From Candidatus Nitrosocaldus sp. (GTDB lineage Archaea > Thermoproteota > Nitrososphaeria > Nitrososphaerales > Nitrosocaldaceae), in the NCBI GenBank assembly GCA_025054855.1, contig JANWZS010000001.1, positions 4,583 through 68,582 of the forward strand: DNA of 64,000 nucleotides. The letters are read 5' to 3'. This document shows, piece by piece, positions 51,824 to 54,386 of this stretch. Under the pieces are notes generated by a model. It worked only from the letters and a program-made list of their open reading frames with translations, did not search any database and had not been told where the DNA came from. Made by a program: the position numbers and the translations under genes. Within the stretch, counting starts at the first letter, position 1. Each line of letters starts with the position of its first letter.

Positions 51824-52360
51824 CTAACTAGACAGTGCCAGTATACGCTTGCGTATCCTTCCTAGGTCAGTGACCCCTATCATATCTACGATGGTGTTGA
51901 TCTGGGCTCTGAACCTGGTAACCTGATCCATGCTAACCGTCAGAACAGCATCCCTTCCAAGTGAGCCTACTATCCTACCACTCTCATCCATACCATTAGC
52001 CCATAGTGCTAGAAGTGACTGCCCTGCTCTGTGCCCCTTCGAGTCCCTGCCAGCGAGCACTATGCACCTTATCCCCTCGTTGGCCGTGACGTACCTGACT
52101 AGAGCATCTATGCCCTTGTTCTCAGATAGCAGCCTACCAGCTATGGCTATATACTGCATGATATCTGACCTCGATACCTCGAGCAGGAGATCCATGCTTG
52201 ATAGAGTGCATAGTGCTATGCTGGAGTTGGTGTTGCCCATGAATACATCATGCCTTATCGGTAGTATGATCTCGCATGCCTTGCCAGCTATATCGGAGAG
52301 GAGCCTCCCCAGGCCCATGGTTGGTATGTGAAGCATTACACTATAAAATATTGCCTTCAC
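51824..52360 (-). CDS. MtrA-like protein (methyltransferase subunit A domain)
   Basis: The protein has 178 residues. IRCIVLAGRDSKGHRAGQSLLALWANGMDESGRIVGSLGRDAVL followed by VTRFRAQINTIVDMIG matches the C-terminal core of MtrA, the corrinoid-binding subunit of methyl-tetrahydromethanopterin:coenzyme M methyltransferase. No other mtr gene is here and the species is no methanogen, so it may be a stand-alone corrinoid or pterin-related protein. The upstream region carries an additional conserved helix. The ATG overlaps the downstream gene by 4 bases. Confidence 0.65.
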   Translation of the reverse strand: MKAIFYSVMLHIPTMGLGRLLSDIAGKACEIILPIRHDVFMGNTNSSIALCTLSSMDLLLEVSRSDIMQYIAIAGRLLSENKGIDALVRYVTANEGIRCIVLAGRDSKGHRAGQSLLALWANGMDESGRIVGSLGRDAVLTVSMDQVTRFRAQINTIVDMIGVTDLGRIRKRILALSS

Positions 52361-52740
52361 AGGCCCCAGGATACCTTCTTGGTCACACTGACCTTTATGA
52401 ACGGTGCCTCGCCCTCACCCCAGGGTTCCCTCCTGACCCACTCGAACCTGCTGTAGAACAACCTGTATATCTCCCTGAACTCCTCCCCACGCTCCACTAT
52501 CTCCGCTGTACCCTCGACCATCACAGCCCTGTTCGGCCTGTAAGTATCTATGACGAGTGAGATGCTCCTATTCCTCAGCACATTCCTGAACTTCCTGGTA
52601 GCGTAATCGGTTGCTATGTAGAAGTGGTTGTTAGAGAAGATGTAGCAGACTGGCACCACATGCGGTCTACCATCTGAACATGTTGCCAACCTGCACACCT
52701 CATGCTTGCCTATGAACTCCAACTCCCTCTCTGTGAACAT
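52357..52740 (-). CDS. Pyridoxamine 5'-phosphate oxidase-fold flavoprotein
   Basis: From the ATG at 52740 the product has 127 residues: FTERELEFIGKHEVCRLATCSDGRPHVVPVCYIFSNNHFYIATDYATRKFRNVLRNRSISLVID. This is the split-barrel fold that binds FMN or F420 in PNPOx-like proteins. The frame is open to 52857, but that stretch lies inside the tRNA-Ser gene and a tatatt box precedes 52740. It overlaps the MtrA-like gene by 4 bases. Confidence 0.82.
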   Translation of the reverse strand: MFTERELEFIGKHEVCRLATCSDGRPHVVPVCYIFSNNHFYIATDYATRKFRNVLRNRSISLVIDTYRPNRAVMVEGTAEIVERGEEFREIYRLFYSRFEWVRREPWGEGEAPFIKVSVTKKVSWGL

Positions 52741-52787
52741 ACACGTATGGTATGCACTGCTAGTAATATAGGTTAGGATCGATGGGA

Positions 52788-52922
52788 CGCCGGGGGTGGG
52801 ATTTGAACCCACGAGCCCTTGCGGGCACAGGCTAACTATTCTTTGTACTCCAGGCATGGGCTTGGCTTACATCAGTATCACTGCCATCCAAACTGCCCCC
52901 TACCAGACTAGGGTACCCCGGC
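52788..52922 (-). tRNA. tRNA-Ser (GGA) with two introns
   Basis: GCCGGGG pairs with CCCCGGC plus discriminator G, and a long variable arm (CCC, GCAA, GGG) marks a class II tRNA. The mature anticodon stem CAGGC/GCCTG with loop CTGGAGA (GGA, Ser) only forms if two introns go. Intron 1 (37 nt, 52856-52892) interrupts the stem between positions 29 and 30: central helix GGGC/GCCC with 3-base bulges AGT and ATG and inner TTGG/CCAA. Intron 2 (14 nt, 52834-52847) is at 37/38. The 84-nt product is a normal tRNA-Ser. Confidence 0.88.
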
Positions 52923-53372: not shown

Positions 53373-54386
53373 CTATTCTTCCTTACTCTTACCCTTACTC
53401 TTCCAGGCTCTAGGGTACGTGTTTGGCCTCATTATAACACGCTTGAGCGTAAACGCTATACCCCTATCTGCCTCAGCTATCTCCTGTGCAGACATCACCG
53501 CCTCTGCAAGCGCAACGAGTTCACCTTTCAGTGTGTATACACCTACCAGGTCACCCCTCCTGAGGTCCCTGGATACCCTGAGTACACCTGGTACTGCAAG
53601 CTGTGCACCATGACATAGAGAGTCCACCGTACTATCCCTTACAACCACGGCCTTCACATGCTGCAGTGCATACTCTACAGGCTTGATCATGCTCCTCAAC
53701 CTCTCCTCTCTACCCTCCTCCCTCCATAGCATGTACGCATCGTATAGATCGTGCAACCTCACCATATCATCCTCATCCAGCATGCTGACCCTGGTCCTCC
53801 TCAACTCCACCATGCTTGCACCAGAGCCGAGCACCTCCCCTATATCGTATATGAGCTTCCTAACGTACGTACCTGCCTGGCATAGCACACGCAGTAGGAG
53901 TAGCCTTCCATGCTCCTCAACCAGTTCCAACTCGTATATCCTCCTTATCCTCACCTCCCTCTTCACGGATGACCTCTGAGGAGGCCTCTGGTATATATCG
54001 CCTATGAACATCCTCATGGTATCGTGCAGTGTACTGCTGGGCACACTCGCATGCAGCCTTGCTATTGCGTAGTACTCCTTGGGCCCTAGAAGGAGTACGG
54101 TGAGTGCCTTGGTAGCCTCCCCAACCCCTATTGGTAGCAGGCCAGTGGTCGGAGGGTCTAGCGTACCGCTGTGCCCTGCACTCTCTACCCCGAGCATCCT
54201 CTTAACCCATGCAACGACCTCATGGCTGGTCGGTCCTGCTGGCTTGTCGAGTGCTATCAGGCCGTAGTCTAGGAGCACATCCATAGGTCTAGAGAATGGA
54301 GGGTAGCCGTGATGCTCATCAGTAACATCATCATCTATACTCAGTAGGTTGTTGAGCTGGGGTAACTGCTCATAACCGTGCATCAT
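53373..54386 (-). CDS. cbf5: Archaeal H/ACA pseudouridine synthase Cbf5
   Basis: The protein has 337 residues. GLIALDKPAGPTSHEVVAWVKRMLGVESAGHSGTLDPPTTGLLPIGVGEATKAL carries the catalytic Asp of the TruB family, and REVRIRRIYELELVEEHG and GTYVRKLIYDIGEVLGSGASMVELRRTRV follow. The C-terminus holds a PUA domain (GAQLAVPGVLRVSRDLRRGDLVGVYTLKGELVALAEAVMS), typical of Cbf5/dyskerin. It modifies rRNA or tRNA with guide RNAs. It overlaps the kinase gene upstream by 17 bases. Confidence 0.94.
   Translation of the reverse strand: MMHGYEQLPQLNNLLSIDDDVTDEHHGYPPFSRPMDVLLDYGLIALDKPAGPTSHEVVAWVKRMLGVESAGHSGTLDPPTTGLLPIGVGEATKALTVLLLGPKEYYAIARLHASVPSSTLHDTMRMFIGDIYQRPPQRSSVKREVRIRRIYELELVEEHGRLLLLRVLCQAGTYVRKLIYDIGEVLGSGASMVELRRTRVSMLDEDDMVRLHDLYDAYMLWREEGREERLRSMIKPVEYALQHVKAVVVRDSTVDSLCHGAQLAVPGVLRVSRDLRRGDLVGVYTLKGELVALAEAVMSAQEIAEADRGIAFTLKRVIMRPNTYPRAWKSKGKSKEE

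Follow-up and report, generated by a model that had tools for sequence, protein, structure and literature searches.

Non-canonical BHB introns have been described in archaeal tRNAs, including introns in the anticodon stem of Aeropyrum pernix tRNA-Trp and of Sulfolobus tokodaii tRNA-Leu, and cutting of the latter was shown with the organism's own EndA (PMC4307357). Multi-intron tRNAs are found in Thermoproteales and Thaumarchaeota (PMC8450103, PMC4033280); when introns lie close together, a neighbour must leave before the second BHB forms (tRNAscan-SE 2.0 paper, PMC8450103). Also described are Caldiarchaeum tRNA-Thr(GGU) (PMC3293823) and the three-intron tRNA-Ile(UAU) of Cyanidioschyzon merolae (PMC9602550). 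The tRNA-Ser(GGA) gene analyzed here shares with the A. pernix and S. tokodaii genes the BHB motif, the anticodon-stem site and, presumably, protein splicing, but it has a second intron 8 nt away and belongs to another isoacceptor and another lineage. Like the multi-intron tRNAs of Thermoproteales and Thaumarchaeota, it contains two introns per tRNA; it differs in that many Thermoproteota families have the pair at a single orthologous tRNA-Ser(GGA) locus. The Caldiarchaeum gene is likewise an archaeal tRNA gene with two introns, but these are located at 24/25 and 45/46 and vary within the population (PMC3293823). The introns of the C. merolae tRNA are removed in order, the anticodon intron last, as is likely for ours, but that tRNA is eukaryotic, and its introns are in the D, anticodon and T arms (PMC9602550).

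The window, a stretch of 64,000 nucleotides, belongs to a 1.56 Mb genome in 42 contigs. Its cbf5 protein shares 88% identity with the counterpart in Candidatus Nitrosocaldus tengchongensis, and the two group together in the tree; the host is a Nitrosocaldus (Nitrososphaerota), a heat-loving ammonia-oxidising archaeon. The original prediction placed in the window a tRNA-Ser(GGA) gene with a 37-base intron at 29/30 and a 14-base intron at 37/38, separated by eight exon bases. Manual parsing and the spliced cloverleaf showed its coordinates and base pairs to be exact, and both intron lengths matched. The features are as follows.

52788..52922, minus strand: tRNA-Ser(GGA) gene, precursor of 135 nt (manual parse, syntenic orthologues, covariance model)
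52893..52922, minus strand: exon 1, 30 nt, tRNA positions 1-29 (acceptor 5' strand, D arm, first 3 nt of the anticodon stem)
52856..52892, minus strand: intron 1, 37 nt, at 29/30 (BHB with covarying central helix; empty-site orthologues)
52895..52898, minus strand: 5' strand of the intron 1 BHB central helix, GGGC, tRNA positions 24-27, pairing with 52858-52861
52858..52861, minus strand: 3' strand of the same helix, GCCC, within intron 1
52848..52855, minus strand: exon 2, 8 nt, GCCTGGAG, tRNA positions 30-37, with the anticodon GGA at 52849-52851
52834..52847, minus strand: intron 2, 14 nt, at the canonical 37/38 site, with a relaxed central helix (3/4 pairs)
52788..52833, minus strand: exon 3, 46 nt, tRNA positions 38-73 (variable arm, T arm, discriminator G73)
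53373..54386, minus strand: cbf5 (pseudouridine synthase), just upstream on the same strand, marking the orthologous locus

The three exons and two introns add up to the precursor length (30+37+8+14+46 = 135). Exon 2 is unchanged in sequence across all parsed Nitrosocaldaceae, the variable arm in exon 3 reads GCCC-GCAA-GGGC, and the CCA end is not encoded. Removal of both introns yields a canonical 84-nt tRNA-Ser(GGA), which at minimum energy (-48.4 kcal/mol) folds into the cloverleaf; with two introns, the gene falls within the range of multi-intron archaeal tRNAs (2 or 3 introns per gene). ARAGORN called no tRNA at 52788-52922 in the raw window and miscalled the extracted 135-nt precursor; once intron 1 was deleted from the precursor, it reported tRNA-Ser(GGA) with a canonical intron. 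The R1 covariance model gave 111 bits at this gene, which was part of its training set. For a listed 166-aa open reading frame (window 52357-52857, minus strand) that begins within the tRNA, translation probably starts at a later ATG (MFTEREL...), beyond the downstream end of the tRNA gene.

Neither BLAST nor the covariance model retrieved a second Ser(GGA) gene from the 42 contigs of the host genome. The remaining host Ser tRNA genes, located like the other host tRNAs by family search, are CGA, GCU and UGA, and the window gene is the host's only tRNA-Ser for UCC and UCU codons. The same genome holds two Ala-like tRNA loci and one Leu (UAA) locus with seemingly non-canonical introns, at which ARAGORN reads wrong isotypes. 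In addition, its tRNA-Ile(GAU) (G000:C22:131401-131515, minus strand) has a variable-region intron enlarged by a 21-nt tandem duplication in which the anticodon arm is copied (CGGCTGATAACC...); at this site the introns of relatives are short, and G006 has none.

As predicted, intron 1 shows the full BHB signature: a 4-bp central helix (GGGC/GCCC), two 3-nt bulges (AGT and ATG) at the exon junctions and a 4-bp inner helix (TTGG/CCAA). The central helix, formed by positions 24-27 and the sixth-to-third last bases of the intron, was paired in 97.6% of cells over 21 distinct sequences, which are related and hence not independent; slid controls gave 10.7-56%. The pair at position 25 is A-U (10), G-C (9) or C-G (1), and that at position 24 is G-C, G-U or A-U. 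Two pairs of the helix show changes on both sides, with separate changes represented by A24-U in G006, C25-G in G338 and the A25-U group. Neither the paired share nor the covariation score was matched in any of 500 shuffles. Conservation of the outer helix is weaker than that of the central helix, and the inner helix ranges from none to 4 bp across relatives.

A 4+4 bp BHB appeared at the 29/30 junction in 0.06% of intron shuffles; empty-site orthologues and covariation provide stronger evidence against chance than this test. When all junctions were scanned within the precursor, 17 of 4743 placements combined a 4-bp central helix with at least three inner pairs, two of them being 4+4; among the 17, only the 29/30 junction agrees with the empty sites. 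By free energy, a different pairing is favored over the BHB in the window precursor (BHB probability 0.02 at 37 °C and 0.27 at 70 °C), and in several relatives the predicted BHB probability is close to zero. This alternative fold was rejected, as it is not conserved and is broken in half of the relatives' sequences. A box C/D guide embedded in intron 1 was also discarded: by eye, the intron is too short and proper boxes are absent.

A survey of the cbf5 locus in named genomes revealed tRNA-Ser(GGA) downstream of cbf5 in Nitrosocaldus, Nitrosopumilus, Methanomethylicota, Bathyarchaeota and Crenarchaeota; the location just downstream of cbf5 is syntenic in most lineages checked. Both introns are present in N. 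tengchongensis, in Methanomethylicota (12 + 11 or 12 nt), in Bathyarchaeota (22 or 25 + 14 or 15 nt) and in several further Thermoproteota families. A covariance model built from the cbf5-locus tRNA-Ser(GGA) set recovered the gene with both introns from each of the seven Nitrosocaldaceae genomes, with 11-58 nt for intron 1 and 10-42 nt for intron 2. When 398 genomes sampled from the phylum were scanned with a pattern for the 29/30 intron, 35 matched. Two of these matches, G024 and G273, are apparently false, and no fewer than four positives (G001, G002, G224, G338) escaped the pattern through their length or a single mismatch, which puts the number of genomes with this intron at 37 or more of the 398. 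Other arrangements were also found: intron 1 alone (L137, L138), the 37/38 intron alone (Nitrosopumilus; families f2 and f3 of one order) and neither intron (L032, L039). Family f4, basal to f2 and f3 in the cbf5 tree, has both. In orthologues lacking intron 1, intron 2 or both, the exons are joined exactly as predicted, and these natural empty sites confirm both junctions.

Several loci in this survey showed additional features. Genes L183 and L187 (families f27 and f37) have an apparent third intron in the D loop besides the 29/30 and post-anticodon introns, and a tRNA-Ser UGA (L139, in G239) also has a short insertion at 29/30. In Bathyarchaeota and several further families (L225-L234, L039, L040, L044, L046), cbf5 lies in two frames split at about residue 77, which corresponds to the known archaeal cbf5 pre-mRNA intron (PMC2738675).

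The host genome encodes two EndA paralogues. One (the C37 protein) is a catalytic α chain that keeps the conserved Tyr, His and Lys and matches the crenarchaeal EndA chains 3p1z and 2zyz. The other (the C42 protein) is β-like, with Pro aligned at the conserved His while Tyr and a Lys are retained. According to a review, Thaumarchaeota have α2-β2 EndA, the type linked to relaxed motifs (PMC4090602), and judging by sequence such a pair is as expected given the relaxed motifs seen here; the two chains presumably form one enzyme. Intron 1 would present a regular BHB in which exon bases of the D-stem and anticodon stem pair with the end of the intron; a heterotetrameric α + β EndA would cut it, and joining of the exons would complete the anticodon stem. 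This stem would then serve as the outer helix, allowing the enzyme to recognise the relaxed motif of intron 2 at 37/38. We favor, with a probability of roughly 0.85, the view that the gene is functional, that it is the only tRNA-Ser(GGA) gene in this Nitrosocaldus species and that proteins splice out its two BHB-type introns, intron 1 probably leaving first; splicing of both introns is presumed.

The order of removal is suggested by geometry and rough folds. The anticodon stem, which supplies the intron 2 motif with its outer helix, is interrupted by intron 1 past the third base pair of the stem. At 37 °C, the mean pair probability of this stem in the window sequence is close to zero in the full precursor and 0.95 without intron 1, whose removal creates the CAGGC/GCCTG stem as predicted. 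It follows that intron 1 is likely removed first. The original prediction went further, stating that intron 2 can only adopt its shape after intron 1 is gone; the rise in stem probability supports the dependence, but "can only" is too strong, since in the Methanomethylicota orthologue L109 the central helix of intron 2 is predicted to form despite intron 1. The L109 prediction speaks for a rival reading, in which both introns are removed independently, in either order, with the endonuclease inducing or tolerating the intron 2 fold without a complete anticodon stem. Relaxed motifs are known substrates of α2-β2 enzymes (PMC4090602), and genomes with one intron or the other indicate that neither needs its partner for removal. 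In intron 2 the central helix is itself relaxed, with 2-4 of 4 pairs in relatives and only 2/4 retained in other Nitrosocaldus species, which makes its recognition there less certain. However, as long as intron 1 remains, folding predicts neither this helix nor the anticodon stem for the window gene and for most relatives, and the intron 1 BHB takes up C27, plus 31-33 where its outer helix forms, the same bases that intron 2 needs. We consider independent removal unlikely, though a serious competitor to removal of intron 1 first.

That the gene is a degenerate tRNA with accidental insertions is hardly conceivable: it is missed by standard tRNA search, but its mature cloverleaf is perfect, it is the sole GGA gene, and the two insertion points are kept across families with covariation, a degree of conservation that contradicts this reading. 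A recent insertion of intron 1 through transposition, as in Thermoproteales, where large-scale tRNA intron transposition has been reported (PMC4033280), is improbable as well for this genome. No copies of intron 1 or intron 2 above chance were found in the host genome, and intron presence on the cbf5 tree requires 6 changes, against a mean of 11.9 with shuffled labels; deeper in the tree, a hot spot may have received insertions more than once. Well-supported branches force at least 3 of these changes, and the count fits an old intron with several losses, which does not by itself prove a single origin. A stronger proposal, that the two-intron gene is ancestral, has been inherited vertically at the cbf5-adjacent locus since the ancestor of Nitrososphaeria, Methanomethylicia and Bathyarchaeia, has been lost repeatedly (e.g., in Nitrosopumilaceae and Nitrososphaeraceae) and is spliced in an obligate order, intron 1 and then intron 2, can be put forward only tentatively, at less than even odds.

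Anticodon-stem introns, two or three introns per tRNA and dependence of a BHB on removal of its neighbour are known already, and the novelty here is modest. No description of the conserved tRNA-Ser(GGA) intron pair across Thermoproteota, with its covariation, was found in the limited literature searched. The gene escapes tRNA finders restricted to canonical introns. The non-canonical intron at 29/30 may be very old rather than a recent gain of the Thermoproteales type, and the natural series at one orthologous locus, with no intron, the 29/30 intron only, the 37/38 intron only or both, offers a direct test of splicing order and dependence.
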